In this document: positions 9,545 to 48,462 of the stretch, piece by piece
How the letters are laid out: each line of letters opens with the position of its first letter
Position numbering within the stretch: position 1 is the first letter of the stretch
IMG/VR virus record: IMGVR_UViG_3300050011_000408
Span: 1 to 51,613 of that record
Direction: 5' to 3' (one strand)
DNA from: a virus
DNA: 51,613 nucleotides
Notes under the pieces: model-generated
What the model saw: the letters and a program-made list of their open reading frames with translations, nothing else
Databases searched by the model: none
What the model was told of the DNA's origin: nothing
Made by a program: the position numbers and the translations under genes

Positions 9545-9763
9545 ATGGAAAACGAAATCCTTATAATACAGAGCAGCCAGATAACGTATGGTCAGTGCGG
9601 CCATTTCGAGTTCGATAAGATGACCGATCAAGAAATTGAAAAGGTACCAAATGTCCTACAAGGTAGGACCGAATTACATGGCATAGTAAGATTTATTTGC
9701 TGCGAGAAGTGTTTCCATGCTATGGTTTGTACAATGAGTAAGACGTATGGACTTGAGGGATAA
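9545..9763 (+). CDS. Small hypothetical protein with Cys pairs
   Basis: 72 residues, ATG five bases after GGAG at the end of the structured RNA region. 'YGQCGHFEFD' and 'RFICCEKCFHAMVC' provide a C-x2-H/C...C-C-x2-C set that could hold one zinc ion; residue pattern only. It is directly followed (one base) by the nucleotidyltransferase, so the two are likely co-expressed. Confidence 0.65.
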   Translation: MENEILIIQSSQITYGQCGHFEFDKMTDQEIEKVPNVLQGRTELHGIVRFICCEKCFHAMVCTMSKTYGLEG

Positions 9764-9764
9764 G

Positions 9765-20389: not shown

Positions 20390-20497
20390 CTACAGCGGGG
20401 CTGGGCCTCAACTCTCCGACGCCGTAGATATCTGGGGAAGCTTTTAGTGTCAGAAGCCCCTCTTAGTTGGAGGGAAGAAGTTGGTTGAATTCCAACC
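20390..20497 (+). other. Compact three-hairpin leader element
   Basis: Between the BPSL0761-like gene and the phosphoesterase gene lies a G+C-richer non-coding stretch. Stem 1: CTAC-A-GCG / CGC-C-GTAG (20390-20397 with 20420-20427). Stem 2: GCTTTT-AGTGTC-AGAAGC (20440-20457) with flanking GGGG/CCC. Stem 3: GGTTG/CAACC (20483-20497), or alternatively GTTGG (20466-20470) with CCAAC (20492-20496). Mutually exclusive pairings ahead of the 20521 ribosome-binding site suggest a regulatory leader; no known riboswitch class is recognised. Confidence 0.4.
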
Positions 20498-20520
20498 CCC
20501 GGAAATATTTAAGGACTAAT

Positions 20521-28846: not shown

Positions 28847-29190
28847 ATTGAAAAGATCATCCCAAGATCGCTCATAACTATATAATATGTTAAGATATAT
28901 CTGTTTTTTTCATGTAATTCTTCAGTATCAATATAAAGGTTCAGTATTGCCTCAACAGATTCTAAGATATATGGGGCAAAGCAATGAATTTGTTGATGAT
29001 TTTGGTTACACCTAAACTCACTCTTACAATGGATTTCGTACTTAATAGTAACTTCTTTTATTAACTCTGAATCGGATAAATATGAGCAATATTCTATATT
29101 TTCATCAATTGCTGTCCATTCGTCCGATTCGCTATCTATGAATCTAGAATAGACCAATTTTACTGTTTTTACTTGTTCTTCGGTCATCAT
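28843..29190 (-). CDS. Reverse-strand hypothetical gene inside the tail cluster
   Basis: 115 residues (MMTEEQVKTVKLVYSRFIDS...), acidic and cysteine-containing, unrecognised. It is transcribed against the structural genes from its own promoter (29197-29225), with the -10 six bases before the ATG and no ribosome-binding site. This makes it a candidate 'moron': an accessory gene with self-contained expression inserted between structural genes. Confidence 0.65.
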   Translation of the reverse strand: MMTEEQVKTVKLVYSRFIDSESDEWTAIDENIEYCSYLSDSELIKEVTIKYEIHCKSEFRCNQNHQQIHCFAPYILESVEAILNLYIDTEELHEKNRYILTYYIVMSDLGMIFSI

Positions 29191-32096
29191 TGTCTAATTA
29201 TATCATACCTGAGGATTACCGACAATCTTATAGGTACAGAGGTTATATGCCAGGTATTCTAAATTTACTGACTTCAAGCGGCTTGACCGGACCTTCAGCG
29301 GTACCTATGGTATCTCTTACTGGGACCCTACCATGGTCAGCGAGTACGTCAGCAGGAAAAGTTACTCCTAGCGGTCTTGAAGCGGGATTTGTCGTTACCG
29401 ATAGCTCCCCAATCCTTCCCGTAACTAGTAGTTTTTTCCCTTTTTTGACTCCTAAAGGACAACTTTGGGATAAATTGATACCCTATAGATTAGTGGTAAT
29501 GGATGTTTCCCACGATCCCCCAGTAGTAGTAAGCGGATCTAAGCCTTCTGCAGTCTCCGTTAATCCATTGGGAAACGGAACCCTATCTTTTGAGGCTGTC
29601 ACCTCAGCGTGGGAATTTTTTCTGCCAATTACCCCCCAACAATTGTCCATTACCGACGCTTATGCTATCAATACTTCTGCAACCTTGCGCGGTGTTCTGG
29701 AAGAGCATTCTGGGGTTAGATTTAAGAACATAACGATTCAGGGAACCTTCGGAGTATGGCCTGGGAGAGCAAGCATCTATACCGCTAGTCCTCAACAAGG
29801 TGGAGCATTAGGAGCATTGCAATCTGTTTTTGGTGGAACTATTTCCGCAATCAATGATTCATTAAGTAAACTTAATTCTATAGCCACAGCCTTTACTACC
29901 GGATCTCTATCGTCTAAACCCAAAACGGTAAGACCGGGAGATTCAGGAGATCCGGATAATGGCCTCAGTACTAGTTATTATCAAACTCTGATGCTGACGC
30001 AATTTCTGGAACAATATGCGGAAGCAAAACGCAATCCTGCTAATGCTGGATGGCGTCTGGTTTTTGATATCCCTAAACAAAATCAAAGTTTTGTAGTTAC
30101 TCCGGTCGGTTTTACTTGGAATGAGAACGTCAATAAGCCCATGGAGATTAATTACAATCTGCAGCTTAAAGCTTGGCGTAGAATAAACCTAAAAGATAAG
30201 TTGCCAAGCGTTCCTTTACAAGTAACACCTTTATCTCCTAACATATTACAACAAATAACTAACACTATTTCTGCTGCACAAATTACTGCAGCTTCAGCAG
30301 TAAATCTAATAGGAGCTGTTAGGTCGGATGTTGATAACATTCTTAATATAATTAGACAAACTGGAATTTTTGTTAAACAGCTGTACGGAATAGGAATGGC
30401 AGCAAGCGATATGGCTAACGGACTTGTTAAGGATTGTAACAGTACGATCAGTCAGTTTGCTTCAACCTTGTCTATCTCAGGGCTTACGGGAAAGGCTGCT
30501 ACAGATACTACAGTCCTAGGTGCCATTGCGGCAATGAAAACTCAAAATGCAACAAATGAAGGAGTACCGACACCTATAAATCCTCCTCCTCTCACATCTG
30601 CACAATTTGCTTTAAATGCCGCAGCAGGTAAGGCACTAAGCGCCCAATTAGCTGCAGCGGCGATTGCAACGAATGCTGCTTCATCGGTAGCCCAAATTGC
30701 AGCGGCAAAGGCTGCTGCTGCGTCAGCCGCATTGGCTGCCGCACAGCAAGCTAATGAATATAACAATATAGTTGCACAGATCAACGCCCAAACTTTAGCT
30801 TCTACAAATCCAGCTAGCATAGCTTTTCAAAATCCATTAAGAAATCCGTTACTATTCAGTCAGGTGCCTATTAGCGCCTTAACTTTAAATCCAGCACAAC
30901 AAGCTGCACTCCAAAATGAAGTAGATACGGTCAATAGTTTTACTGTGGCGGACTTAAAGATAATGCGTGGAACTATCCTTACACTTTGTACCCAGTTATC
31001 CAATTCTTTTGGTGCGGGAAATGCATACTATAGCGTCCTGTTTAATCAACCAACCCCTCTAGTTCGTAACGAGCCCATGACTTTGGATGAGTATAATATC
31101 TTACAATCATTTTACGAATTAGTTCAAGCCTATGACGTTCTCACCGCTACTAACCAGATAGACAATAACCAAATCCTAAACAATATGGAATACGTCAGTG
31201 CCTTGGCAGCTACTTCCGGAATTCCTTTCTCGACTCCAAATTCTAAAATACAAGTTCCGGTTCCATTTGGCTTAAATATTGAACAAATATCCATGAGATA
31301 CCTGAATGATCCTCAGAGATGGATTGAAATAGCGACCCTTAATTTCTTAAGAGAGCCCTATATTGATGAGAATGGTTTCGTTTACTCTCTTTTGTCCAAC
31401 GCAGATGGTAGGAATATAGTAATTGGGAGCATCCAGGATCTTTTTGTTGGTCAAACCATTTATCTAAATTCCAATACTCAGTCAGCAACAGCCAGGACTA
31501 TCATAAATATTGTTACTTTATCCCAAACAAGCTTTCTTTTGACTTTGGATGGGTTACCGAATTTAGATGGGTTCGCTACGATAGATCAGGCATATATCCA
31601 AGCTTACTTGCCAGGAACCGTAAACTCACAAAATGTCATTTGGATGCCTAGTGACTTACCCACCTCACCAGACGATCAGATTAACATTCCTTCTTCTGTA
31701 GCCAATGTAAAACTGGTCGGGTTAAGTAAAGTGGACTGGTTATTAACTCCGCAAGGCGATATAGCCATTGATAATGTTGGAGATTTTAGATTAGCGGCAG
31801 GAATTACCAATTTAGTGCAAGCCCTAACTATTAAGTTTTCTACACAAGTTGGGACTTGTCTTCTTAACCCAGACTTTGGGCTAAATGTTAAACCGGGGAT
31901 AATGGTCTCAGATACGAGCGCTTCCGATGTTTATAACGAGATAGTGGGCATGATCACTGCAGATCCTCGTTTTAGCGGCATTAGCGGCCTTCAGGTAACT
32001 ATTCAGCCCCCAAGTATGGGTATTAGCTTGGGAATAGGTCTATCGGGCATACAAGGTATTTTCCCCGTATCATTTCAATTACCTATGTCTTCGTAG
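29190..32096 (+). CDS. Baseplate protein with C-terminal gp25/gpW-like domain
   Basis: Up to 968 residues. The open frame can start at TTG 29190 without ribosome-binding site, or at ATG 29247 behind AGAGG; the latter clears the divergent promoter, but the first 19 residues look coding, so the start is unresolved. Parts: N-terminal ~330 residues beta-rich; ~430-540 Ala-rich helical (AAGKALSAQLAAAAIATNAA); ~690 'MRYLNDPQRWIEIATLNFL', a LysM/gp53-like element; ~845-968 'VDWLLTPQGDIAIDNVGDFR', 'LVQALTIKFST', 'LNPDFGLN', as in GPW_gp25 wedge proteins. A fusion of parts usually encoded separately. Confidence 0.7.
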   Translation: MSNYIIPEDYRQSYRYRGYMPGILNLLTSSGLTGPSAVPMVSLTGTLPWSASTSAGKVTPSGLEAGFVVTDSSPILPVTSSFFPFLTPKGQLWDKLIPYRLVVMDVSHDPPVVVSGSKPSAVSVNPLGNGTLSFEAVTSAWEFFLPITPQQLSITDAYAINTSATLRGVLEEHSGVRFKNITIQGTFGVWPGRASIYTASPQQGGALGALQSVFGGTISAINDSLSKLNSIATAFTTGSLSSKPKTVRPGDSGDPDNGLSTSYYQTLMLTQFLEQYAEAKRNPANAGWRLVFDIPKQNQSFVVTPVGFTWNENVNKPMEINYNLQLKAWRRINLKDKLPSVPLQVTPLSPNILQQITNTISAAQITAASAVNLIGAVRSDVDNILNIIRQTGIFVKQLYGIGMAASDMANGLVKDCNSTISQFASTLSISGLTGKAATDTTVLGAIAAMKTQNATNEGVPTPINPPPLTSAQFALNAAAGKALSAQLAAAAIATNAASSVAQIAAAKAAAASAALAAAQQANEYNNIVAQINAQTLASTNPASIAFQNPLRNPLLFSQVPISALTLNPAQQAALQNEVDTVNSFTVADLKIMRGTILTLCTQLSNSFGAGNAYYSVLFNQPTPLVRNEPMTLDEYNILQSFYELVQAYDVLTATNQIDNNQILNNMEYVSALAATSGIPFSTPNSKIQVPVPFGLNIEQISMRYLNDPQRWIEIATLNFLREPYIDENGFVYSLLSNADGRNIVIGSIQDLFVGQTIYLNSNTQSATARTIINIVTLSQTSFLLTLDGLPNLDGFATIDQAYIQAYLPGTVNSQNVIWMPSDLPTSPDDQINIPSSVANVKLVGLSKVDWLLTPQGDIAIDNVGDFRLAAGITNLVQALTIKFSTQVGTCLLNPDFGLNVKPGIMVSDTSASDVYNEIVGMITADPRFSGISGLQVTIQPPSMGISLGIGLSGIQGIFPVSFQLPMSS
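29197..29225 (-). promoter_or_regulatory. Leaderless-type promoter for the reverse gene
   Basis: Reverse strand TTGTCG (29225-29220), 17 bases, TGATATAAT with perfect TATAAT (29202-29197) and extended TG. The ATG at 29190 follows after six bases. Confidence 0.7.
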
Positions 32097-32157: not shown

Positions 32158-35100
32158 ATGGCAACTAATCCAATACCACCAAGCTCAACTCTCCCACAGC
32201 CTCTTTCGTACGAGGCTATTCTTGGTCAAATGTTATCTAGCTATGCGAGTTCATTGGGAATTAATGATTTAAATACGGGTTCGGCCAATACCGCTTTCAT
32301 GCAACTAGTTGCCTTAATGGTCGCCCGTTCATCTGGGGACATATTCCAAATCCTTCGTGATTTTAGTTTAGATAGAGCAACTGGTCCAGCCCTTAAGAAT
32401 TTGGGTATTGAGTACGGCGTCCCCCCAATAGGTTCTGCCACAGCTACCAGTTCTATTACCGTTACGGACCTATCCTTTCAAAAAATTGCTACCGTTATCT
32501 ATGCTGGAACAAACCCTCCAATCCCAGGATCTACCACAATCAATGTAAGCGACGCCTCACAATTCCCAGCAACAGGTACTATCTATCTAGGTAGAGGTAC
32601 TGTTAATATTGAAAGTCGCCCATATACCCTAATAACTCCTATTGGATCTTATTATGCAATAACCCTTTCTTTGCCAACTACCAGGTTCCATAATATTGGT
32701 GAATCCATAATCCTATCTCAAGGTGGCGTTAGAACCGTTCCTATAAATACAGTAGTCGTCTCTCCCGGTGTTGGCACTACCGCTAGCGTTCAATATTTCG
32801 TAACTAATGCTGGTATCATCTTAGATGGCGAAACAGTTGTTACCAATGTTCCAATCACTGCCCAGCTCCCTGGTGCCACTAATGGCAATGTTCCAGGTGG
32901 CGCTATTTCAAAGTTTTCTGCTAATCCTCCTGGTCTATCCAATGCCAGCGTTACAAACCCTTTGGCAGTAACTACTGGCAGAGATGCAGAAACGGATGAA
33001 CAGTATAGGGTTCGTATTAAAAATGCTTTAGCTTCTACCGGGCTGGGCACAGTTACGGCCATTGAATCGGCCCTCCAGGGAGTTCAGGATCCTACTGGAT
33101 CTGATTCAATAGTTAGTACCGATGTTCTGAATTCTGCTACCAATACTACGGTTTATATTGACAATGGGGCAATTTTAGAAGCAACTCATACAGGAGTGGC
33201 TATTGAGGCCATAGTTAATTCGGCGCTAGGCGGAGAAAAGTTTTTCCAACTAGTAACGGGTGGAACACAAACTTCTGTAACTAAAGCTATTCTCCAAAGC
33301 GTTGCCGCTGAACCCTTTGCTCTTTTCGGTGGTGAATATTTAGAAGTGATTGTTGGTAATGTTACCTATCCCCATGTTTTTGTTGCAGCTGATTTTGCTA
33401 ATCCTGGAAGTGCAACAGCCTATGAAGTTTGCGCTAGTATAAACGGGGACACTTCCCTCAATTATGAAGCAGTTACAGCTGGCAATGGAACTTATGTAGT
33501 TATTCGTCCTGAAGATCAAGTTACCGATATAATTCAGGTAACTACTCCTCCTGTAATCATTCCTCCATTAACTGACGCTAATACTGTCTTACAGTTTCCT
33601 TCACAAAAGGGTGAAACGCTAAGACTGTTTAAAAATGGTCGCCTTCTAACTGAAGATGGCGTGACGGCATCTATATTTACGCAAGACCAAGGACTTTGGT
33701 CTTCAAATTTAGCAACTAATGTAACATTTGGCCTTTCTGTGGATGGTACTGCTCCTGTCACGTACATACTGACAGATGCGATGTTTTTGGCCGAAGGCAC
33801 CTACACCACTTTATCTCGCACAAATAACCTGCAATCTTGGGTAAACGTTCTTAATACCAATATTGCCGGAATTACAGCCTCTATCGTTGGATCAACAATA
33901 GAAATTAGTAGCAATTTAGGTGCCATAGATAGAGCTAAAATTACAGTTGTTCCTACGGCCTTTCCTTCTCTAACAGATGAGGGAGTGATTAGTTCTACCG
34001 ACCTTACTTCTACCGGAATAGCGTCAGACTATATTTTAGACAGGAATACCGCACAAATTGAATTGACTAGCGCCCTAGTAAAAAAAGATTTGCTTTCAGC
34101 TGGTACTTACATTACACAGGCGAACATTCAAGCAGGAAATATACCTTCCGGCCTAGTTACCTTAACTTCAGATGCACATGTTTGGATTTCTATAGATACG
34201 AATGCTACCATCATTCCTACTATACAAAGAGGATCGACTCTATCTGTTTCCACCATATCCCCAACCATTGTTAGATATACTAGCAATGCCAATTCTTTTT
34301 TAAATGTTTTGCCAGGAGATTACGTCATCATTTGGTCAACAGAAATTCATTCCACAGATGATCTGGAAGGAAGAGTCCATGCTGTTTCTGGGAACACGTT
34401 AGACATAAAAATAACTGTTGCCGAGTATTCTCTGGTCACTCCAGTTTCAAATGCCCCATTTGTTCAAGGTTTTGTGGTTGTCAGGACCGCTAATGTTCCT
34501 CAAAAGTTTAAGGTCCAATCGTCTATTTCGGCACAAGATATCTATGCTATTGCCGCCGAGCTTCAACTTCAAACGGACGAAGTTACTTTTGGAGTCGTTA
34601 ACGACGCCAATATTACGGTAACAACAAACACTCTAGGCAATGAAGGCCAGATTACAGTTGTTACTGCCGATTCTTTTGGGGCTCTTTTAGGGTTTGTCGG
34701 TGGAACTAACAGTGTTAGTCAGGAGGCACTAACGGCTTTCTATGAAACTAAAGCTACAACTGCAGAACTTCCATTATTTTTCCATTCTACTATCAGTGCT
34801 GATTCCTATGCTGAACCAATTGATACCTATTTGACCAATTTTTCTTCTACACTTTCTCTGTCTTCTTTTGATCCAAATGAACTTATTAATTTTCTAAATC
34901 CCTATGGAGTTCAACCGGTAATTTCTGGTGGCTCATCGTCTAGCTTATTGGGATCAGCGGCCACCTTTGCCCTCTTGGCAACTTCAATGATAACTAATAC
35001 AGGGCCTAGCACTATTACTGGTGATGTGGGTGTAACTCCTAGTGGTTTTATTACTCCTGGTGGGTGGACGTTAGTAGGGACAACTCATACCAATGATGGA

Positions 35101-38100
35101 GCGGCTGCAACAGCTCGTACCGATGCTCAGACCGCCTATACCTCTCTCATGGGAATGACTCCTACCGGTACTTCTGGAGGCCACATTAATTCCGAACTTG
35201 GTGGCCAGTTTCTTGGTCCTGGCGTGTACGTAGCCACTTCTGGAACAGCCGGAACCTTCACTTTAAACGGAATCCTCACCTTAACCGGAAACGGCGTTTA
35301 CGTATTTCAAGCCCCATTAAGCACTATTATAACTGGTGGAACGGGAACTCCAGTTATTACACTAGCTGGTGGAGCTTCAGCATCCAACATCTATTGGGTA
35401 GCAAATTCTTCAATTACCATAAATTCTGGCTTTACGGGAATTTTCGAAGGTACTGCCATTGCTTCTGCTAGCGTTGGTGACACACTAGGGGGAACTGTAA
35501 ATGGTAGATTAATTGCTCTTACAGCTGCAGTAACTTTGAGCGCAACAACTATAGTTACCGCCCCCGCATCTCTTCCAGCGGGTGGCGTTCTGACATTGGT
35601 GAGTGGTACGGGAGATACAACGATTGCCTATTCTGCATTTACTATACCGTTACAACCTCTTCAGTATGCCTTTACAGTAACTTCTGCAAATGCCACTGTT
35701 GGCGCAGTTTATAGCACCAATGGATTGTTTTTTACAGTTTCTACAACAATTGTAGGTGGTACGACACTAACCTTAGTTGGTGCTGGTCTTATTGATGACG
35801 AACAGCCATCGGAAGAAACCGTCCAAATGTGGGCAACTGCTGGAACTTCAGTAACAATTCTTCCAGAATACCCAGACGTAAGACGCCTTAGGGTTGCCGA
35901 TAGATACTACGTAGCCAACCCCCTAGATTTTGGATATAACGATACTGTTGTCGTTATTGTGGACAACAATACGGTTGGTGAAACTTATACGATGCCTCTC
36001 TATAGGAGAGCTATCGTCAATAGTCTTTGGCCAGCAAACGATTACAGCTTTGACGCTTACGATGTAGATGCGGGGGCAACCGCAAGCTTCGACGATAACT
36101 TTACTGGATTTGATTTCTCAAACTTCAAAGCATTAATGCAAGCCAAATACGTTATCCAATCAGCATTGGTGCCACAAACAGCGCTCTTGCTTAGGTCTAT
36201 TCTTTGGGGTCGTAGTGGTGAAAATATAAATGTTTCCTATGTTTACCCAACATCTGCTAATCAACCTATTGGTTCCAATGTCACCATTACTAGTGCTGAT
36301 AATGTCAGTATAGAAATTAGCTTAATGTCCGGCAATCCAATTAATTTTCCAGGTATTACCTCCAATACACAGTGGAATGTGAGCACAACGGGGCAACGTA
36401 CTTTCACAGTACCAACTGCTGCAGCCGCTACTGTTGGTGCGGTTTATACCAACAATGGCCATATATTCACGGTAACTACTACAAAGGTTACTAGTGTAGG
36501 AACTACTTTAGTTACGACTAGTTCTGGAGTACCCTCGGCTTCTGGAATTCTTACAAAAATTACTGGCACGGGAGATGCAACAATTGCTTTCTCAGCGTTT
36601 GTTTTTTCGGGAATTGATGAAGTAACGTACACCTATGCGGGAAACTATACGTTTACGGTACTACTTGCCGCCGCCGCTACTGTTGGCGCAGTTTATACCA
36701 ACAACGGTCAAACATTTACCGTTACGACCACGAAAGCTGGTGGAACGGGAACTACACTAGTTGCTACCAATTCTGGCGGCGCGCCCACAGCTTCTGGAAC
36801 CCTAACGAAAGTTAGTGGAACTGGCGATACCACAATTGCTTTCTCAGCATTTACTTTTTTAGGCGCAGGCACAGCTCCAAACCTAACTTTAAGTGGGGGA
36901 GAATATGTAACAATTCTTCCTTCTACTGGATTTAATATAGAAGACACGGGAACATTTAGGGTATCTACGGCTGTAGGATTTACTCCCACTTCTACTTCTT
37001 TTAGCGTCCAGGTACCAGCAGGAACTGCATTTGCTCAATCAAATGTTTTGACTATCGCCGCATCAGGCATGAGTTTCTACAACTCTTCCCCAACAACTGC
37101 TGCAGCTATAAATACCTACATTAATAACAACCTAACCCAATACATTACTTCTTCAATAGTAAATGATGGCGGAACTTCCGGATCTGGAGTTATCGCGTTA
37201 AGTAGTTATGAAGACAGCGGTTTCGTAACTCCATTTTACTACCTAAATGACGGCATTAACTGGATAGCAAATGATGGCCAATACGTATTTACCGTAACTG
37301 CTGCAAATGCAACTGAGGGCGCTCTATATACTACCCTGAATAGCAACAATCAGTTACAATACTTTACGGTTATTACGACCATTAGCGGTGGCACGTCACT
37401 TAATATGGCCGGTTCAATTGGAACACCTCCTGTATCAGGAATACTAGTTCTCGTAAGAGGAGATGGAGATGCTGCGATTACCTACTCAGCTGTCTCTCCA
37501 AGACCACAATTTACTTTTAAAGAGCCACTCACTTACGCTACCCCTCCACTTGCTCCTGGATATAGCTTTTTTACGAGTGGGGATGAAGTAAGGCTCATTC
37601 CAACTACCATGGATCAAGTCCAAAGACTGTGGTCTATTTTAGCTGTGACCGGTTTTACTACGGTTGGAACCGTGGAAGTAGTGGATCGCGGTACAAAACT
37701 CCAATTAGCTACGAATACATTAGGATCAGTAGGGGCTATTCAAATTGTTGGTGGAAGCGGAAACGAATACACTGTTCCTGTACTGACTTCCGGTGAACTT
37801 CTCGGCAACAACGAAATGCTAGTTTCTGCAAACAATATCGCAAGTCAGGCTATGGCCAGTGATCAATGGTTCAGGCTTCAAGCGCAAAACTATCAGAATA
37901 AAGATACGGGAATCGGCAATAATACCAGTGTGGCTATTGTAAATAATAACCCTAGTGGTGGAGATTCTACCATAACCCTTCTAAATCAAGAATTGGGCCA
38001 ATTGTATTTCGGTGGTCCTAGAAATAACGTTAGTGTGGAAGGAAGAACTTTTAGAATAGAGAAACAAGGATCCCTCGCTTGTTTGAGTTGGAACGGAGTC

Positions 38101-40917
38101 GGCACTTCTCCTGGTTTTAGCTCTTCTGTAAACTTTAATGACTTAGGAGGTTGGGTAGTTAACGTGTCCGCATTGGGAGTTTATTCCATATCTTCTACTC
38201 CAGCTCCCACCCCAAGCATATTAGCTTCTGCAGCAACATATGCCGCATTGGGAGCTTCTGCAGTTGTGGGATCTGCTATAGCATCGACTCTTACTGGTAA
38301 CTTAGGTATTTACCCTAATAACGTTTCCTCTATTACGAATCTTCCTCCAAGTACTTATACTGGAACAGAAAATGCTGGTAACGCTGCTGCTCAGACCGCT
38401 CAAGCTGATGCTTTGGTTGCGTACAATACTATGGCGGCTGAGGTAGCAACTCCAATTCCTGCCATTTTGGATGGCCAGACTCTTACTCCTGGAGTTTATA
38501 CCGAAATTACGGGAACTTTTAATTTGGCGACTTCCACAGCTGGAACCCTGACCTTTAATGGCGCTGGAACTTACATCATACATGCAACAAGTACGCTTGT
38601 TACCGGTGCCGGTGGAACTCCAACGATGACCCTCATTAATGGAGCCTTAGCGAGCAATATTTACTGGATCGTGGGTAGTTCTGCTACCATTAATTCTGGT
38701 CATACTGGAACCTTCCAAGGTAACGTTATTGCTTCTGCATCCATAGGCGTTACTCTTGGTGGTACTGTAAACGGAAGCCTTATAGCTCTCAATGCCGCAG
38801 TAACATTGAGTGCTGCTACCATTATCAATTCACAGTCTACTTCTGCTCCTTTAGTTGCCGGACATACCAGTTTTTCAGGTCTCACAGTTGGCGATTTAAT
38901 CACTATTTCTGGCCTACTTAATGCTAGTAATAATGGAACTTTCTTCATAACAAGTGTTTCTCCTGACGGACTTTCTTTTACTGTTTCAAATTCATCAGCA
39001 GTTGTAGAAACTGGAACAGCGGTTCTATCTGGAGCTTTTACGGCTACTTCCTCTGTTTCTGAAGGAGATACTTTAATAATCTATCCTCCATTTGCTCCCA
39101 TTAATCAGGGACAATATAGAGTTATCCGTATGTCCGAGGATAGTGTTTGGTATGAAGATCCAAGAGCAAAAGCATTTCCTACGGTTGTAAATATACTTGA
39201 AGAGGAAGTTACCTGTATCGCAAATCCTGTAACTACCACGTTCGACGCTACAACTGGTTTTAACGTCTCCATTTTGAATGGAATTGAGACAATAAGCTGG
39301 AATGGCACCGGAACTCCTATGATGTTCCCCTTTAATCTCCCCATTCAAGGGAATGTCGCTACATTTGGATCAGGATTCCTTAATACTTATACGTTTACTG
39401 TAACATCTGCTACGGCAAATGCTCTTGATACGTACACCGATGGATTAGGCAACACCTTTACCGTAGTAACCTCTATTGCTTCTGGAACCACTTTAGTTAC
39501 TACTAGTCCTGGAGCCCCAACTACTTCCTCTGGAAGTTTAGCTAGAGTTACTGGTTCCGGAACCAACCCAATCCTATTCAGTTCAGTAACAATCACTCCT
39601 GTAAATCAAGGAAGCTTCGTAGTCGTAGGATCTGGTTCAACTCAGCCACAAATTGCTCAATTTATTTTCCCTCTTGCAACAAGTTTCACTCCTTCTGGTC
39701 CTGGACAATATTTTGAGTTATTTAGCGGAACTCCTGGCAATAAATACGCTATCTGGTACAATGTTAGCCCTGGAAGCAATGTAGCCCCTATAGTTCCTGG
39801 ATTTACTCTTATAGGGGTTACTATCAATAGCGGAGATAGTGCCGCCACAGTTGCTTTAAAAACATATACTGCCATTAATGGGTTCATGGTCGGATTAACG
39901 GCTTCCTATGTTTCTCTAAGCAATGTAGTAGCAGTAACAACAACGGCTTCTGCTACTACCTTTCCGCCCACTATCCCCGTTTCTATGCCAACAGGTTTCA
40001 GTTTTGCAATCACACAACTTGGCCAAACAGCATTCATAAGCGTTATAAACCCATCTGCTGTTGTACAAACTGGGATTTCTTCTGTAACTTTTTCAATAAA
40101 TAACCCACAAATTCAATTTTTCCCATATGAATCAACCGTTCCAGGAGACAAATTGGTGGTTAATGGGAACGCTCTTGGTGCAGGGAATGCCGGGACATAT
40201 CAGATTCTATACGTTACTAGCCCAACAACTGTAGTTGTTTCCGGAAATGTCTTTTCAACAATTAGTCCCATAAATTTGGCTGGGAATTCTACTTCTGTGG
40301 CCGTTCAAGAAGGTGTCGCTTATACTGGATACAAACAGGTAGACTTTATATCTCCACAAGAAGGTGTTGCTAATTTTAACAATATTGTGTTTAATACCTC
40401 TGCACAATATGAAAAAATTGATCCAGCTGCAGATATTGGGATGGTCGCTCTCAATAAGTTAAATTTTCCAGTGACCGTAAGAACCGGGATAGATGCCTAT
40501 AACTATGACACGGGTTTGATCGGACAAGCCAATAGGGTTATTTATGGAGATCCACGAGATCCTGTGACATATCCAGGAGTTAATGCTGCAGGAACAAATA
40601 TTTTTATTAGAGAGCCGCTATTAAAAAGAGTCTTTATTGCTCTAGCCATTAGAACGAATATCGGGGTTAGTTTTGCACAGATTGCCAATCAAATACGGTC
40701 CTCCGTTTATGCTCTGGTATCATCCAATTTGATTGGTGAATCGATTGATTTGTCTTCTATAGTGGAAACTGTTAGACTAATACCTGGTGTGACATCTGTC
40801 GTGTTAACTAGCCCTACTTATGATGTAGCTAGCGACGAAATTGTTTTGGTTACTGGACAGAAGGCCATAATAATTAACCAGACATCCGATATCACCGTAA
40901 GCCTCATAGGGTCATAA
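32158..40917 (+). CDS. Giant baseplate J/gp6-like protein with two DUF3494 domains
   Basis: 2919 residues; no clear ribosome-binding site before the ATG. Residues ~1-320 are baseplate-J-like: 'ANTAFMQLVALMVARSSGDI', 'TGRDAETDEQYRVRIKNALA'. Residues ~2750-2919 ('GVSFAQIANQIRSSVYALVS', 'SSIVETVRLIPGVTSVVL') are the matching C-terminal part. Between them are at least 2,400 residues of inserted beta modules: DUF3494 at ~930-1135 and ~2020-2225; five ~70-residue 'VGAVYTNNGQ.FTVTTT..GTTL' repeats (~1171, 1416, 1498, 1709, 2412); and the 'FELFSG....WYNV.PGSN' module at ~2499-2581. A wedge subunit normally has 300-650 residues; the insertions may be displayed on the baseplate surface. Confidence 0.85.
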   Translation: MATNPIPPSSTLPQPLSYEAILGQMLSSYASSLGINDLNTGSANTAFMQLVALMVARSSGDIFQILRDFSLDRATGPALKNLGIEYGVPPIGSATATSSITVTDLSFQKIATVIYAGTNPPIPGSTTINVSDASQFPATGTIYLGRGTVNIESRPYTLITPIGSYYAITLSLPTTRFHNIGESIILSQGGVRTVPINTVVVSPGVGTTASVQYFVTNAGIILDGETVVTNVPITAQLPGATNGNVPGGAISKFSANPPGLSNASVTNPLAVTTGRDAETDEQYRVRIKNALASTGLGTVTAIESALQGVQDPTGSDSIVSTDVLNSATNTTVYIDNGAILEATHTGVAIEAIVNSALGGEKFFQLVTGGTQTSVTKAILQSVAAEPFALFGGEYLEVIVGNVTYPHVFVAADFANPGSATAYEVCASINGDTSLNYEAVTAGNGTYVVIRPEDQVTDIIQVTTPPVIIPPLTDANTVLQFPSQKGETLRLFKNGRLLTEDGVTASIFTQDQGLWSSNLATNVTFGLSVDGTAPVTYILTDAMFLAEGTYTTLSRTNNLQSWVNVLNTNIAGITASIVGSTIEISSNLGAIDRAKITVVPTAFPSLTDEGVISSTDLTSTGIASDYILDRNTAQIELTSALVKKDLLSAGTYITQANIQAGNIPSGLVTLTSDAHVWISIDTNATIIPTIQRGSTLSVSTISPTIVRYTSNANSFLNVLPGDYVIIWSTEIHSTDDLEGRVHAVSGNTLDIKITVAEYSLVTPVSNAPFVQGFVVVRTANVPQKFKVQSSISAQDIYAIAAELQLQTDEVTFGVVNDANITVTTNTLGNEGQITVVTADSFGALLGFVGGTNSVSQEALTAFYETKATTAELPLFFHSTISADSYAEPIDTYLTNFSSTLSLSSFDPNELINFLNPYGVQPVISGGSSSSLLGSAATFALLATSMITNTGPSTITGDVGVTPSGFITPGGWTLVGTTHTNDGAAATARTDAQTAYTSLMGMTPTGTSGGHINSELGGQFLGPGVYVATSGTAGTFTLNGILTLTGNGVYVFQAPLSTIITGGTGTPVITLAGGASASNIYWVANSSITINSGFTGIFEGTAIASASVGDTLGGTVNGRLIALTAAVTLSATTIVTAPASLPAGGVLTLVSGTGDTTIAYSAFTIPLQPLQYAFTVTSANATVGAVYSTNGLFFTVSTTIVGGTTLTLVGAGLIDDEQPSEETVQMWATAGTSVTILPEYPDVRRLRVADRYYVANPLDFGYNDTVVVIVDNNTVGETYTMPLYRRAIVNSLWPANDYSFDAYDVDAGATASFDDNFTGFDFSNFKALMQAKYVIQSALVPQTALLLRSILWGRSGENINVSYVYPTSANQPIGSNVTITSADNVSIEISLMSGNPINFPGITSNTQWNVSTTGQRTFTVPTAAAATVGAVYTNNGHIFTVTTTKVTSVGTTLVTTSSGVPSASGILTKITGTGDATIAFSAFVFSGIDEVTYTYAGNYTFTVLLAAAATVGAVYTNNGQTFTVTTTKAGGTGTTLVATNSGGAPTASGTLTKVSGTGDTTIAFSAFTFLGAGTAPNLTLSGGEYVTILPSTGFNIEDTGTFRVSTAVGFTPTSTSFSVQVPAGTAFAQSNVLTIAASGMSFYNSSPTTAAAINTYINNNLTQYITSSIVNDGGTSGSGVIALSSYEDSGFVTPFYYLNDGINWIANDGQYVFTVTAANATEGALYTTLNSNNQLQYFTVITTISGGTSLNMAGSIGTPPVSGILVLVRGDGDAAITYSAVSPRPQFTFKEPLTYATPPLAPGYSFFTSGDEVRLIPTTMDQVQRLWSILAVTGFTTVGTVEVVDRGTKLQLATNTLGSVGAIQIVGGSGNEYTVPVLTSGELLGNNEMLVSANNIASQAMASDQWFRLQAQNYQNKDTGIGNNTSVAIVNNNPSGGDSTITLLNQELGQLYFGGPRNNVSVEGRTFRIEKQGSLACLSWNGVGTSPGFSSSVNFNDLGGWVVNVSALGVYSISSTPAPTPSILASAATYAALGASAVVGSAIASTLTGNLGIYPNNVSSITNLPPSTYTGTENAGNAAAQTAQADALVAYNTMAAEVATPIPAILDGQTLTPGVYTEITGTFNLATSTAGTLTFNGAGTYIIHATSTLVTGAGGTPTMTLINGALASNIYWIVGSSATINSGHTGTFQGNVIASASIGVTLGGTVNGSLIALNAAVTLSAATIINSQSTSAPLVAGHTSFSGLTVGDLITISGLLNASNNGTFFITSVSPDGLSFTVSNSSAVVETGTAVLSGAFTATSSVSEGDTLIIYPPFAPINQGQYRVIRMSEDSVWYEDPRAKAFPTVVNILEEEVTCIANPVTTTFDATTGFNVSILNGIETISWNGTGTPMMFPFNLPIQGNVATFGSGFLNTYTFTVTSATANALDTYTDGLGNTFTVVTSIASGTTLVTTSPGAPTTSSGSLARVTGSGTNPILFSSVTITPVNQGSFVVVGSGSTQPQIAQFIFPLATSFTPSGPGQYFELFSGTPGNKYAIWYNVSPGSNVAPIVPGFTLIGVTINSGDSAATVALKTYTAINGFMVGLTASYVSLSNVVAVTTTASATTFPPTIPVSMPTGFSFAITQLGQTAFISVINPSAVVQTGISSVTFSINNPQIQFFPYESTVPGDKLVVNGNALGAGNAGTYQILYVTSPTTVVVSGNVFSTISPINLAGNSTSVAVQEGVAYTGYKQVDFISPQEGVANFNNIVFNTSAQYEKIDPAADIGMVALNKLNFPVTVRTGIDAYNYDTGLIGQANRVIYGDPRDPVTYPGVNAAGTNIFIREPLLKRVFIALAIRTNIGVSFAQIANQIRSSVYALVSSNLIGESIDLSSIVETVRLIPGVTSVVLTSPTYDVASDEIVLVTGQKAIIINQTSDITVSLIGS

Positions 40918-40918
40918 T

Positions 40919-43135
40919 ATGGCAGTTACAACACAAAAACAGGAATTGGCTCGTCTAAGAAGTTACCTTAATCCGTTTATTCGTGGGAATACTACTACAG
41001 CCGTACTCAATTCTTTAGCAACCGCTTCCTCTTATTTGGTAAATTCAGTACAGGCCGTAAATGACAGCCTCTATGTTGTAACTGCCCAAGGAGTATACTT
41101 AGACCTACTTCTGGCCAACTACGGCATTTCCAGGGATCCAACAGTCGGTATTGGTGATGAAATCTTTCGTACGATTGGTATTCAAGTTAAGAATCGTAAA
41201 CAAGTTAGGGATCTAATTAACAATATTCTGGATGCCGTTTTTGGAGACGAATTCGTAAAAGCTACTAGCAATGCTCAGAATGTAGAGCCTTATGCTCTTG
41301 TGGATGGCGACACTTTAGTCATAAATTTTGATGGTGCTAATACCAGTACTATTACTTTTGACTCTGCCCAATTTACCAATATTCAACTTGCTACTGCCCA
41401 AGAAGTTGCCGATGCCATTTCTATTGGGTTAAGCGCCCTCAATGTTTCTGGAAGTGCCATCCTAAACAATGATGGTAATGGAAACTATGTTCAATTGCTT
41501 AGCGATACTATTGGAGCAACCTCCACTATCACAGTTTTGGGTGGAAGGGCCCAGAACGTACTCCTTTTAAATTCTCTAGAGCAAACTAACGGCAATTCTT
41601 CCACCCACTGGCAACTTCTTGGTGAATTAGGTGGAATAATGAGATTTACTTGGATCAGTGGCGCTGACCCTAATTTGGGTAAATTGCACATGGGAGACTA
41701 TGTAAATATCTACGGTGGTGGATTTGCGGCATCTTCAAATCAGGGAACTTTCCCCATAGTAAGTTTTGGCGAAAATTATTTTGAAGTTTACAATCCCCAA
41801 GGAACTTCTGGATCGGTAACGCAAGGGCTCTTTGAGCCTGGAAATATTGACAATGTTGTTCAATTCTATTCCCCTCTTAGGGAAACTATTTTAAGCAAAC
41901 AGTATTATGGTGCTGTATATCAGACCCAAAGCAACATATTACAGATTTTCATGCCTGCTACCACTCAGGTTGTGTCCAAAAGTAGGATTGGAGCGGCATT
42001 TTTACATGGGGTAACCGAGCAACCGGTAGTACAGCTTATATTTCCTGCAGGTAACACTCCTGCATTTCCTCCCCCTCCTTCTCCGTATCCTCCTTATCCT
42101 CCATCTCCGTTAGTTCCTCCACCATCTATCGGTCCAGCTGAATATTTCTTAATTGATGATTTGGGAAGTGCCTATCAATATTATGTTTGGCTCAATGTTT
42201 CTGGTGGAAGCAATACGGATCCGGCTCCTAACGGATTTACTGGTATAGAAGTTACCATTAATAGTAGTGATTCAGCCGCTGTGGTCGCCAACAAAGCCTT
42301 TATTGCCATAAGCACTGTTCTTCCAACACTGACATATACTGTAGTGGACAATGTTATAACTATGACGGTCGTTGATCCTCTTACGGTTGCAGACGCAGGA
42401 CCAACTACTCCAACAACATTAGGCCCTTATATTTTTGACACACAGCAAGGATTCGTAGTTGGCGGTGCGGTTACAACTTTAACGGAAAGTGTAAATGGGG
42501 GAGTGAGCAATTCTATAATATTCACCACCCCCAGTACGGCTAATGCTACGGCTGGTGCAAAATATACCAATAATGGCCAAGTATTTACGGCAGAAGATAC
42601 TATTATTGCTGGACAATATCTTACTGCGAATAGCACCGGTAGTCCCTCTCCTTCTGGAACACTCACGTTGATAAGCGGTAGTGGGGATAGCACGATAACC
42701 TTTACAACATATAGTCAAAATAACGGGAATATAATGGCCGTGGTAAGCTCTGATGGATTTCCAAATACTAGCGGATATCTCATAATAGGCTATGGTACTG
42801 AACTGCAAGAAGGGCCAATACCATATATAGCCGTACCATCTAGCGGAACCATCCTCATCAGCCCCGTATATTCAATTCAACAGAACCACCCAGTTGGATC
42901 ATCCGTATTCCTAGTTACGCAAAAGACTCCAATAACGTTACCTGATGATGGAAGCTATTATCAACCCTATTTGACGGATACCGCAGTTGGCAGAGTTTAT
43001 GCACAAAATTTGATAGATTCTATAACTGCGGCAGGAGTTACTGTTATTTATACGATTTTGTATCCCAATCCAATCGGTTTGGGCGGTTGGGAAAATCCAA
43101 TAGCAGACGAGATTGCTTACGTGTACGGACCATGA
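40919..43135 (+). CDS. Large baseplate/tail protein with shared modules
   Basis: 738 residues, one base after the J-like stop. The start 'LARLRSYLNPFIRGNTTTAV' with 'AQGVYLDLLLANYGISRDP' resembles wedge proteins that follow gpJ. Residues ~376-411 are a proline-rich linker (FPPPPSPYPPYPPSPLVPPP). Residues ~404-495 carry the 'YYVWLNVSGGSNTDPAPNGF' module and ~530-600 the 'AGAKYTNNGQVFTAEDT' repeat, both shared with the giant protein. The C-terminus 'YAQNLIDSITAAGVTVIYTI' is again of the gpI/gp7 style. Probably a wedge-fibre connector. Confidence 0.6.
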   Translation: MAVTTQKQELARLRSYLNPFIRGNTTTAVLNSLATASSYLVNSVQAVNDSLYVVTAQGVYLDLLLANYGISRDPTVGIGDEIFRTIGIQVKNRKQVRDLINNILDAVFGDEFVKATSNAQNVEPYALVDGDTLVINFDGANTSTITFDSAQFTNIQLATAQEVADAISIGLSALNVSGSAILNNDGNGNYVQLLSDTIGATSTITVLGGRAQNVLLLNSLEQTNGNSSTHWQLLGELGGIMRFTWISGADPNLGKLHMGDYVNIYGGGFAASSNQGTFPIVSFGENYFEVYNPQGTSGSVTQGLFEPGNIDNVVQFYSPLRETILSKQYYGAVYQTQSNILQIFMPATTQVVSKSRIGAAFLHGVTEQPVVQLIFPAGNTPAFPPPPSPYPPYPPSPLVPPPSIGPAEYFLIDDLGSAYQYYVWLNVSGGSNTDPAPNGFTGIEVTINSSDSAAVVANKAFIAISTVLPTLTYTVVDNVITMTVVDPLTVADAGPTTPTTLGPYIFDTQQGFVVGGAVTTLTESVNGGVSNSIIFTTPSTANATAGAKYTNNGQVFTAEDTIIAGQYLTANSTGSPSPSGTLTLISGSGDSTITFTTYSQNNGNIMAVVSSDGFPNTSGYLIIGYGTELQEGPIPYIAVPSSGTILISPVYSIQQNHPVGSSVFLVTQKTPITLPDDGSYYQPYLTDTAVGRVYAQNLIDSITAAGVTVIYTILYPNPIGLGGWENPIADEIAYVYGP

Positions 43136-44732: not shown

Positions 44733-47714
44733 ATGGCAATACTTTCTACAGGAAATCTTCTTTCCGAACAACGCTACGATATAAGCGACGCCAGGCGTGT
44801 CGAATCTGCTGTACGCAACGATTTTGATACCACTGTAACGTCCATATTCACCAATACTTCCCAAGGCTATATAATCAGAGGGTTTTATCTAAATACTGCC
44901 GGAACTATTGGTTCTGCAGCCAATAATCTACAGTTGGTTGTCGATCCAGGCGCTGTCCTCCATATTGCGGCTTCTGTCTCAGGTACGATCTTTCAGACTC
45001 CAGTTGGAACTCCACCCCAGACCCTAAACAACACCACTAATACCAATGTTTCCGGATCTTTCACCCCAGGTACCAATAATTACGTTGGAATCGACTATAA
45101 TCGTTTTGCGGATCCTACTACAGATGTGACCAAATATATTTGGAATGCTTCTGCTAACGATGACTTGCCAACCATAGCTCCTGCCGCCCAGACCCTAACT
45201 TATAAGATCGTCATAACCAATTCCGTATGGGCCGCAAACGTTCTCCCTATAGCCATAGTAAATGTGGGCTTTAATGGGGAGGTACTGTACATTACAGAGG
45301 CCAGATGGATGCTTTACAGTCTGGAGACTGGTGGCCTTAATCCTAATCCCAACTTCGTCTATCCTTGGACTGCTGGACGCCTTCAGCCTGCTACTACACT
45401 ATCCTCTCTCAATCCTGCAGCCACTCCTTTTATAGGTGGTGATAAGCAGATTACCTGTTTCAAGGATTGGGCTGATGCTATAATGACAGAATTGTTGGGA
45501 ATCAAAGGAACACCTTATTGGTTTTCCGGACCTAACGTAGGCCCTGGCGGCGGACCTTTACCAACAATTCAATCCTTGTTTCAAGATCTTGGTAATACGG
45601 TTATTACTGGCAGCGGAGAAATATCTAATGGTATTTTGCCAGACTCCGTACCTGTTTTGGCCACAACTGGAAATATTATAGCTAATAGCAACCAACTTAC
45701 TAATTTAGGTTCTACGGTAGGTTTGTTGATTGGGCAATCTATTTTTGGTAATGGCATTCGTCCAGGAAGCACAATCGTTAGTATTATTGGCACAACTGTA
45801 ACGATGTCTCAAGTTGCAGCTTTCAATGGCACTGGAATTGGTGCATCTTTTTATTCTCCTGGCGTTATTACGGCTCCTGGACAGATTAATTGGGACAAGC
45901 CGATTGATATTAGAGTTATTGGTTCTTCCCTTACATATGTTTTAGCTGCTAATCCCACTTCTACTGACATTACTCTTGCAGATGATGAAGTTGCCTACAT
46001 AGTTCTTGATAGAGAACAGGTGATTGCCCCAAATTTGATCTTTACTACCGGATCCAAAGTAGTGTCATCTGTGGGAAGCGTAGTTTGGACTACCGGACTT
46101 CTTCCTGGCGACTATATTAAAATCTCTACCGATACTACTTCTGGTTATTACCAAATTGCCCCAATAAGAGATATTACATATCCATCTGGCGGTATTCTTA
46201 GTGGCTTTGCCGTTGGACTTGCCACTGCTGTTTTGGTTGCGGATAGTACTGGTCCAACTGGCACTCAAGCGCAATTTGCTTTTGGCAGCTATTCTACTTC
46301 TCCTTTTCCTTCAACAAACAGAGACATCTTTATTGCTCCTCGTGCATTAGTCCCTGTGAATGGAAATATTTTCTGGCTATTTCTACGAGAAGATAATAGT
46401 GGCAGTCCAAGAGTATACATAAGATTTTTAGCTCAAGAACTTGACAATGGCGAATCTGTTGAGGTTAGTGGGACCACCTCTTTAGAGGTTCTCCAATATA
46501 TTGGATCTCCATCTGCTAGCACTTCTTCACCGCAATATGTGGCGACGTTGACCCCAGGATCTTTGGCCCAGATCACCAATATTACTATTGGTTCTGCTGC
46601 AACTATTACTAGTAATCAATATTTTACTCTCTATTCCGCTGGTGATTTCAGAAAATACTATGTTTGGTTCAATAAAGACGGTACTGGCGTCGATCCTATG
46701 GTTCCTGGATATAACGATCAGATCCAGGTCGCCATTTCTACTGGTATGACCAGCACTTCAGTCGCCGCAGCATTAGCCGCCGCATTCAATGCTGCACCAG
46801 ATTCCGATTTCTATGCAGTCGCCGGAGCAGGTACTGTAGTTGTAACAAATAGATCTTCTGGAGCTTCTACAAGTCCTTCCAATTTTAATGTGGGCGCACC
46901 ATTTGCCATCTCTGTGTCTCAATCTGGGACTGGAACTGGAAATTTTGTTATTAGAGATGGAGACAGCCTAACTCTCGCTATTAAGAAATTAGATGAAGCT
47001 ATCGGAGTTGCTGTAGCTCTTTACGATGAATCGATAGATATCGTTGCCTCTGGTGGAACTCCCCCAGCTACCCCTTCTAATTCCCCAGTTTCCATAAATG
47101 GACCTCTTCCTTCAGGTACAATTATCGCTCTCCCTAATAATTCTAGAATGTCGAATATTGGTGAGTTCTATGTTGTAGGAGATGGAAGACTAGAAATTTA
47201 TCTAAATGGAGTGCATCTAAGGCTGGGTGATGGGTGGTCAGAGGTAGGTGCTTTTGGGTCTTCCAGTAATTTAATTCAAATCTTAAGTACTTACGCAGAA
47301 GCCCTTGTAGTTGGCGACTATCTTGAATTCATAATTCATCCTGTCGGTGGTTCTCAGGGTCTTGGAACTCCCGGTCCTGCAGGACCAACCGGCGCAACTG
47401 GATCTCCAGGTGCAGATGCATTAAATGGCCCAATTACGATCTCTACTAAAACCTCAAACTATCCTGTCCTCTTAACGGACAAATTCTTATTGGCCGATTG
47501 TACTACTGGTCCATTAACGTTTACTCTCCCTACTGCGGCTAGTGCCATGAGCAAGGTGTTCTACTTTAAGAAGATAGGGTCTAGTTTAACTAATGCTATG
47601 ACGATACAGGCAAACGGAGCAGAACTTATCGACGGATTTAATACTAAATCTACTACAATATTGTATAAAGAATATGCAGCTGTAAGCGATGGTGTTTTTT
47701 GGTGGATTTTTTAA
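44733..47714 (+). CDS. Tail fibre protein with collagen-like segment
   Basis: 993 residues. The first 350 residues are beta-rich ('NTSQGYIIRGFYLNTAGT', 'YKIVITNSVWAANVLPIAIV'), as in fibre attachment domains. Residues ~630-700 hold the shared 'YYVWFNKDGTGVDPMVPGYN' module. Residues ~879-895 are collagen-like G-x-y repeats (GTPGPAGPTGATGSPGA), followed by a short C-terminal knob ending 'VSDGVFWWIF'. Collagen-like trimer segments plus a C-terminal knob are classic for receptor-binding fibres. Confidence 0.8.
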   Translation: MAILSTGNLLSEQRYDISDARRVESAVRNDFDTTVTSIFTNTSQGYIIRGFYLNTAGTIGSAANNLQLVVDPGAVLHIAASVSGTIFQTPVGTPPQTLNNTTNTNVSGSFTPGTNNYVGIDYNRFADPTTDVTKYIWNASANDDLPTIAPAAQTLTYKIVITNSVWAANVLPIAIVNVGFNGEVLYITEARWMLYSLETGGLNPNPNFVYPWTAGRLQPATTLSSLNPAATPFIGGDKQITCFKDWADAIMTELLGIKGTPYWFSGPNVGPGGGPLPTIQSLFQDLGNTVITGSGEISNGILPDSVPVLATTGNIIANSNQLTNLGSTVGLLIGQSIFGNGIRPGSTIVSIIGTTVTMSQVAAFNGTGIGASFYSPGVITAPGQINWDKPIDIRVIGSSLTYVLAANPTSTDITLADDEVAYIVLDREQVIAPNLIFTTGSKVVSSVGSVVWTTGLLPGDYIKISTDTTSGYYQIAPIRDITYPSGGILSGFAVGLATAVLVADSTGPTGTQAQFAFGSYSTSPFPSTNRDIFIAPRALVPVNGNIFWLFLREDNSGSPRVYIRFLAQELDNGESVEVSGTTSLEVLQYIGSPSASTSSPQYVATLTPGSLAQITNITIGSAATITSNQYFTLYSAGDFRKYYVWFNKDGTGVDPMVPGYNDQIQVAISTGMTSTSVAAALAAAFNAAPDSDFYAVAGAGTVVVTNRSSGASTSPSNFNVGAPFAISVSQSGTGTGNFVIRDGDSLTLAIKKLDEAIGVAVALYDESIDIVASGGTPPATPSNSPVSINGPLPSGTIIALPNNSRMSNIGEFYVVGDGRLEIYLNGVHLRLGDGWSEVGAFGSSSNLIQILSTYAEALVVGDYLEFIIHPVGGSQGLGTPGPAGPTGATGSPGADALNGPITISTKTSNYPVLLTDKFLLADCTTGPLTFTLPTAASAMSKVFYFKKIGSSLTNAMTIQANGAELIDGFNTKSTTILYKEYAAVSDGVFWWIF

Positions 47715-47715
47715 T

Positions 47716-48462
47716 ATGTTTGGGATATTATATATAATTACTAATAAGATTAATGGTAAAAGGTATGTTGGACAAACTATACAGACCCTGCAGAAGCGCT
47801 GGATTGCTCATTGTTGCAACAGTAATCCTAGTTCTCTAATAGGGAAATCCATCAATAAACGGGGAAAAGAAAATTTTGATATAAGAATATTATCTATATG
47901 CAATTCCTTAGAGGAAATGAATAGTAGGGAAATCTATTATATAAAATTGTTCAATACCTTGAATCCAAATGGATACAATCTAGCTCCGGGTGGAAGAAAT
48001 TCAATAACATCAAAAGAGACAAGGGTTAAACAGTCTAATTCAGCAAAAGGAAGAATAGTTTCTTTACAGACAAGAGAAAGAATATCCATTTCCAATAAGG
48101 GCAAAAAAAGAAGTTTAGACGCCATTCGTAAAACGGCAGAAAAAAATATTGGGAGAAAGGCCTCAAATGAGACTAAGGTTCGCCTATCAGAATCCCATAT
48201 GGGCTATAAAATGCCGGAATCACAAAAAAATAATATTTCAAAACACAATAAAGGCAAAAAACGCACAGTGGATCATAAGAAAAAATATTCTAATTCTAAA
48301 AATCATCTAAAGATTAAAGTTTTTTGTCCAGAGATCGATATGGTGTTTGAATCCATAGGAGCGGCAGCGGAATATACAGGTGCCTGGCGTACCAATATCG
48401 GTAAGGTATTAAGCGGAGAATTAAGAAAAACTAAAGGACTTACCTTTTCGAGGATTACCTAA
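47716..48462 (+). CDS. GIY-YIG homing endonuclease
   Basis: 248 residues from the ATG at 47716, one base after the fibre stop. 'GILYIITNKINGKRYVGQT' is the GIY-YIG catalytic motif (here GIL-Y...YVG), with 'RWIAHC' (Arg) and 'NSREIYYIKLF' (Glu) completing the nuclease site. Three DNA-binding NUMOD3-like stretches follow ('KETRVKQSNSAKGR', 'QTRERISISNKGKK', 'NETKVRLSESHMGY'), and a NUMOD1-like end ('FESIGAAAEYTGAWRTNIGK'). AT-richer and Lys/Asn-richer than its neighbours, which agrees with recent transfer between two fibre genes. Confidence 0.92.
   Translation: MFGILYIITNKINGKRYVGQTIQTLQKRWIAHCCNSNPSSLIGKSINKRGKENFDIRILSICNSLEEMNSREIYYIKLFNTLNPNGYNLAPGGRNSITSKETRVKQSNSAKGRIVSLQTRERISISNKGKKRSLDAIRKTAEKNIGRKASNETKVRLSESHMGYKMPESQKNNISKHNKGKKRTVDHKKKYSNSKNHLKIKVFCPEIDMVFESIGAAAEYTGAWRTNIGKVLSGELRKTKGLTFSRIT

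Follow-up and report, generated by a model that had tools for sequence, protein, structure and literature searches.

The window analysed here, the whole linear IMG/VR virus record IMGVR_UViG_3300050011_000408 (51,613 nt), encodes at 32158-40917 (+) a baseplate wedge (J/gp6-type) protein of 2919 aa with two inserted DUF3494 domains. On balance, we favour the reading that this is the J protein of an Mx1-related contractile phage with exchangeable loop modules, in which mobile DUF3494 cassettes would be displayed and would bind an ordered extracellular surface. Labels of the form L### and G### designate environmental virus contigs and records compared with the window.

A J/gp6-type wedge protein from a phage related to Mx1

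The gene is a single uninterrupted ORF, whose product matched the Pfam profiles PF04865 (Baseplate_J; 1.2e-11, 44.8 bits, curated cut-off 21.1) and PF11999 (Ice_binding, DUF3494; 3e-56, in two stretches) and PHROG 6, baseplate wedge subunit (2.3e-21). The first-pass annotation had described a 2919-residue baseplate-J-like wedge protein, and PF04865, PHROG 6 and synteny with Myxococcus phage Mx1 agree on that assignment. The Baseplate_J match (aa 204-295) falls in the N-terminal J scaffold (aa 1-920; 32158-34917, +), which shows 36% identity to Mx1 and 46-74% to nearer environmental relatives, and the C-terminal J scaffold (aa 2651-2919; 40108-40914, +) is 70-75% identical in the nearest relatives. 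The scaffold model of a relative gave a weak match to the C-terminal domain of pyocin PA0618 (5ces; TM 0.73, probability 1.00, E 0.019). In T4 and R-type pyocins, J/gp6-type proteins occur twice per wedge, that is, 12 per baseplate, so that the number of J copies per virion is either 6 or 12, and the earlier proposal of six copies of each domain around the baseplate is not established.

Mx1 (170 kb; OR576727), which has a contractile tail (PMC10720576), was the sole annotated phage record matching the whole 2919-aa protein. In Mx1, the genes for the baseplate assembly protein, the J-like protein and the 'kelch' protein, with the two that follow them, match window ORFs in order. The Mx1 J-like protein, WNM70274, resembles the window J over aa 12-844 (36% identity) and 2652-2918 (34%) and has syntenic neighbours, but it is only 1925 aa long, and a profile search of the whole Mx1 genome found no PF11999. 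Upstream of the window J lies a baseplate protein (29190-32096, +; PHROG 975 and PHROG 120) syntenic with Mx1; downstream, a structural protein of 738 aa (40919-43135, +), homologous to the Mx1 'kelch repeat' protein, bears one ~70-aa repeat (aa 535-598) and one KYFELF module, and a 993-aa protein in a fibre-like position (44733-47714, +) has an N-terminus homologous to Mx1 WNM70277. From this shared syntenic baseplate module, the window phage is predicted to be Mx1-related, although its host need not be Myxococcus, because G+C content differs (41% in the window versus 55% in the Mx1 stretches read).

No tail sheath gene was identified in the 51.6-kb window fragment. A GIY-YIG homing endonuclease (PF01541, PHROG 314) is encoded at 47689-48462, with the fibre-like gene on one side and a tail-fibre-assembly-like gene on the other, and L005 carries a homologue (50%) between J and the next structural gene. 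The window also encodes a ribonucleotide reductase large subunit (17129-18754), an RlaP-type nucleotidyltransferase (9747-10778) and a tRNA-Thr (20431-20504).

Three DUF3494 domains in the window

Scanning the whole record with PF11999 (cut-off 28.7 bits) located DUF3494 at 34975-35553, 38248-38823 and 13153-13743, each with 109-112 bits, and the same scan of 14 control genomes gave no match in any of them. Within J, where DUF3494 domains had been anticipated at ~930-1135 and ~2020-2225, domain 1 occupies aa 931-1134 (34948-35559, +; 112 bits, profile 1-202) and domain 2 aa 2022-2224 (38221-38829, +; 110 bits, with AlphaFold and Foldseek agreeing), both in canonical order; the PF11999 match spans the whole domain (profile 2-207 of 208). 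The third domain, likewise anticipated, is at aa 229-441 of a 554-aa protein (12442-14106, +) that also contains a KYFELF module (148-221) and a chitobiase-C-terminal-like domain, PF13290 (485-546). Since the record is a 51.6-kb fragment, three domains are a minimum for this phage. In another contig, L084:9383-10951 joins a permuted DUF3494 to the same chitobiase-C-terminal-like domain as in the 554-aa protein.

Modules are gained and lost at discrete sites of the J scaffold

Alignment with relatives lacking DUF3494 modules, including Mx1, revealed a collinear J scaffold of ~1,760-1,900 aa, to which the window segments 1210-1410, 1565-1704, 1769-2012 and 2231-2418 belong as conserved parts. 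Consequently, of the more than 2,400 residues of beta modules previously proposed, only ~1,100 aa are inserted modules, on a scaffold of ~1,760 aa.

Presence and absence across relatives define two insertion sites in the window. Site 1 (aa 921-1209; 34918-35784, +) contains DUF3494 in the window, L026 and L159 and is empty in L015, L029, L020, L021, L033 and L037, with window aa 920 joining ~1210 directly in relatives with an empty site. Site 2 (aa 2013-2230; 38194-38847, +) is filled in the window, L026, L015, L029, L159, L166, L214 and L031 and empty in L020, L021 and L033, aa 2012 then joining ~2231 directly. A third area of J, at about 1370-1780, bears DUF3494 in L151, L152, L206 and L076, and a fourth, at about 2310-2483, in L078; across relatives, DUF3494 occupies four or more sites of J. 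In an AlphaFold model of aa 661-1760 of L034, a relative without DUF3494 (pLDDT 82.8), site 1 corresponds to residue 253, in a loop with pLDDT <50 (250-257) between strands 244-248 and 263-270, and site 2 to residue 721, where strand 715-722 ends. Domain gain and loss exactly at predicted loops thus suggest that loops of a fixed J scaffold accept modules.

Two smaller modules recur as well. Five ~70-residue repeats had been reported; a two-seed profile recovered four full copies, at aa 1414-1483 (36397-36606, +), 1497-1567 (36646-36858, +), 1709-1779 (37282-37494, +) and 2411-2478 (39388-39591, +), and the fifth, directly after DUF3494 domain 1 (aa ~1137-1208; 35566-35781), is split or partial. 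In this last copy the C-terminal half precedes the N-terminal half, as if it were permuted or two truncated units had been joined. The repeats at 1410-1565, 1704-1769 and 2418-2483 are present or absent from relative to relative. The ~75-aa KYFELF module, common to structural proteins of many relatives, is found at aa 2502-2575 of J (39661-39882, +) and at 12883-13104, 42119-42316 and 46581-46793 in the 554-, 738- and 993-aa proteins, respectively.

The unusual length of the gene is the one feature that could point to an assembly or annotation artefact fusing separate genes, which we regard as practically negligible: L026, L159, L015 and L029, independent contigs from other samples, show the same collinear architecture, ruling out misassembly, and the module-poor version of J (1,760-1,925 aa) exists in Mx1 and others.

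Predicted fold and putative binding face

An AlphaFold model of window aa 1765-2420 showed pLDDT mostly >90 in the DUF3494 part, with a bracing helix at model residues 312-329; model residues 1-225, a scaffold part with pLDDT <50, were left out of the analysis. Foldseek matched domain 2 to 6eio (5e-14) and 7bwx (TM 0.88), the TM range to the two being 0.82-0.88, and all PDB matches at E<=1e-3 (31/31) were DUF3494 ice-binding proteins. In structural alignment, domain 2 is 34-37% identical to its two closest solved DUF3494 structures. Domain 2 is therefore modelled as a DUF3494 discontinuous beta-helix with a bracing alpha-helix, and domain 1 would be a DUF3494 beta-helix by homology only; the beta-helix expected at these positions by the first-pass annotation is borne out to that extent.

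The ice face of AnpIBP consists of six published hexapeptides (PMC7277481), from which we mapped the b-face of the window domains by alignment, the beta-2 strand aligning poorly. Outward b-face positions were A, G, S or T in 21/24, 22/24 and 21/24 cases for domains 1, 2 and 3, as compared with 17/24 in AnpIBP and with 49-52% in the rest of each window domain; none of these outward residues was charged, and the equivalents of S153/T156 were kept. Over 35 phage domains, entropy was 0.79 bits at the outward b-face positions versus 1.38 bits elsewhere (permutation p 0.0005, which is not a strict probability because the rows are related). As the whole domain, like the whole protein, is rich in A/G/S/T and the rows are correlated by descent, this conservation may be partly structural.

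Ice, the best-known ligand of the DUF3494 fold, is a candidate ligand here. That it is the actual ligand, with virions binding ice in seasonally frozen habitats or gaining protection from freeze damage, seems to us rather doubtful. The uniform set of fold matches argues for it, as do an uncharged b-face that exceeds AnpIBP in small residues and the PF11999 genes that Arctic virome work reported in viruses (PMC11515562). However, b-face column 2 is a mixture of A/S/T/G in the window domains, and not the all-alanine type of the strongest ice binders; the mixed type resembles sediment and subsurface sequences, and DUF3494 occurs in ice-free settings too (PMC12337378).

DUF3494 in sheath and other virion proteins of relatives

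A dedicated scan of IMG/VR yielded 163 DUF3494-encoding stretches, 80 of which were kept. Separately, whole-record searches of 80 viruses that were related or carried DUF3494 found PF11999 in 24 records (10/50 plus 14/30, the second set including records picked for the domain). The carriers cluster into J proteins, fibre-like proteins of ~1,250-2,290 aa, proteins of ~440 aa and a 21-member group mostly of 900-950 aa. This last group is tail sheath, as indicated by PHROG 279 (6e-24, L088) and by the five members tested, which are 31-45% identical to the Mx1 protein annotated as sheath. The sheath genes (L088:9395-12166, L191:5422-8169, L082:4072-6840 and others) have DUF3494 at aa ~120-400, and in L088 it is circularly permuted, with profile 52-202 at aa 190-337 followed by 2-52 at aa 345-397. 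The sheaths of L087, L207, L195 and L219 have the same permuted order, most others show it less cleanly, and that of L210 is canonical. G012, G084 and G077 (162-171 kb) each contain four to five DUF3494 domains, with sheath and J both among the carriers in one phage. Each tail contains many sheath subunits, and sheath-borne DUF3494 in relatives would number hundreds per virion. The virion-borne system proposed in the first-pass annotation hence extends further, to sheath and fibre-like proteins of relatives.

The survey of other phages advised by that annotation found the domain in environmental relatives and in none of 50,697 annotated phage records (tblastn, five domain queries). One of the five queries matched 37 plasmid records, including Streptomyces plasmids, and we thus consider that the domain is missed among cultured phages.

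Two readings bear directly on these distributions. DUF3494 domains could be host-range modules that recognize a bacterial cell-surface polymer, as would fit their position on baseplate and fibre-like proteins and, as for receptor-binding modules, their shuffling and their gain and loss between close relatives. We judge this unlikely: the putative binding face is conserved, not diversified, and relatives have DUF3494 in the sheath, away from receptor contact. The presence of DUF3494 on baseplate and sheath alike speaks for particle coating and against receptor recognition as its only role. Alternatively, DUF3494 could be one of several easily folded beta modules that pile up in loops by recombination as inert spacers, under no selection for binding; the 70-aa repeat and the KYFELF module also come and go in J, and relatives without DUF3494 exist (Mx1, L005 and L033). 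This, too, is improbable, since conservation is higher at exposed b-face positions than elsewhere and DUF3494 recurs in virion proteins of several kinds, one of which has it in permuted form.

Probable exchange of the cassette between virion genes

In the tree, the main phage DUF3494 group (34 rows, support 99/98) excludes the bacterial domains found; bacterial relatives in the genome collection were few and distant (39%), with the Bacteroidetes type nearest among those found. The window site 1 domain is sister to that of the window 554-aa protein (99/96), not to that of L026 site 1, despite about 70% identity between the J scaffolds of the window and L026 around the site. Monophyly was rejected for J site 2 domains (p 4.5e-10) as well as 540-aa carriers (p 5e-4), and its rejection was marginal for site 1 (p 0.039); for the three window domains together, monophyly was not rejected (p 0.09).

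Domains 1 and 3 also share an identical 57-nt tract (35151-35207, +, and 13356-13412 in the 554-aa gene), even though the genes are 22 kb apart and only 66/202 codons are shared. The longest run of identical codons is 18, a value reached by 0/100,000 permutations. Exchange between virion genes is the simplest account of the tract together with the tree pattern. Because neither site nor gene predicts domain kinship, and given the tract, DUF3494 appears to behave as a phage-borne cassette moving between virion proteins.

Discussion

Taken with the insertion sites, the exchange and the preserved b-face, the distribution of DUF3494 leads us to infer its surface display on the particle and adhesion. 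According to the reading that we favour, inter-strand loops of a beta-rich J scaffold of ~1,760 aa would take up exchangeable modules, two of them DUF3494 beta-helices, and a phage-specific DUF3494 cassette would recombine among sites and virion genes (J, the 540-aa protein, fibre-like proteins and tail sheath). The modules would stand out from the tail, where their presumably flat, small-residue b-face could grip an ordered extracellular surface, be it ice, polysaccharide or host envelope, and this adhesion would keep the particle where hosts are. The mixed composition of b-face column 2 and the occurrence of DUF3494 in ice-free settings and on Streptomyces plasmids weigh against this reading. 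In a bolder form, which we advance tentatively, the antifreeze fold might be a general virion coating on wedges, fibre-like proteins and, in permuted form, every sheath subunit, offering hundreds of ice- or surface-binding sites per tail, so that the particle would partition onto ice or another ordered surface. If DUF3494 binds ice or soil surface, freezing and thawing could concentrate, preserve or release virions. The system also exemplifies a single cassette moving between several virion genes, with a natural circular permutation among its forms.

We found no papers linking DUF3494 with phage, in a search thin on subscription literature, so an earlier description is possible. A study of the receptor-binding domain of an eCIS merely cites an ice-binding adhesin and has no bearing here (PMC12923769).

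Arctic virome work found PF11999 on viral contigs, as here, and did not read these ice-binding-like genes as virion parts but as auxiliary genes protecting the host from cold (PMC11515562); Synechococcus phage S-SKS1, named in that work, gave no PF11999 match at E<=0.01. Beyond this precedent, little suggests an auxiliary metabolic gene whose ice-binding product shields the infected host, and we hold it very unlikely overall. For J it is ruled out, as DUF3494 lies within the reading frame of structural proteins and not in a free-standing secreted protein; the free-standing carriers of 320-450 aa in relatives might still be read this way.

Domain 2 resembles the ice-binding proteins EfcIBP (6eio), AnpIBP (7bwx) and SfIBP_1 (6bg8) in its predicted beta-helix, bracing helix and small-residue b-face. 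Nevertheless, characterised DUF3494 proteins are secreted or cell-surface microbial proteins, whereas the window domains sit in a phage wedge protein and form a separate clade. Tailed-phage structural proteins carry Ig-like and other decoration domains, for which a mucus-adherence (BAM) model has been advanced. Like these, DUF3494 cassettes are exchangeable beta domains of virion proteins and may serve to keep the phage at a surface; unlike them, they have another fold and another candidate ligand and, in relatives, are permuted in the sheath.
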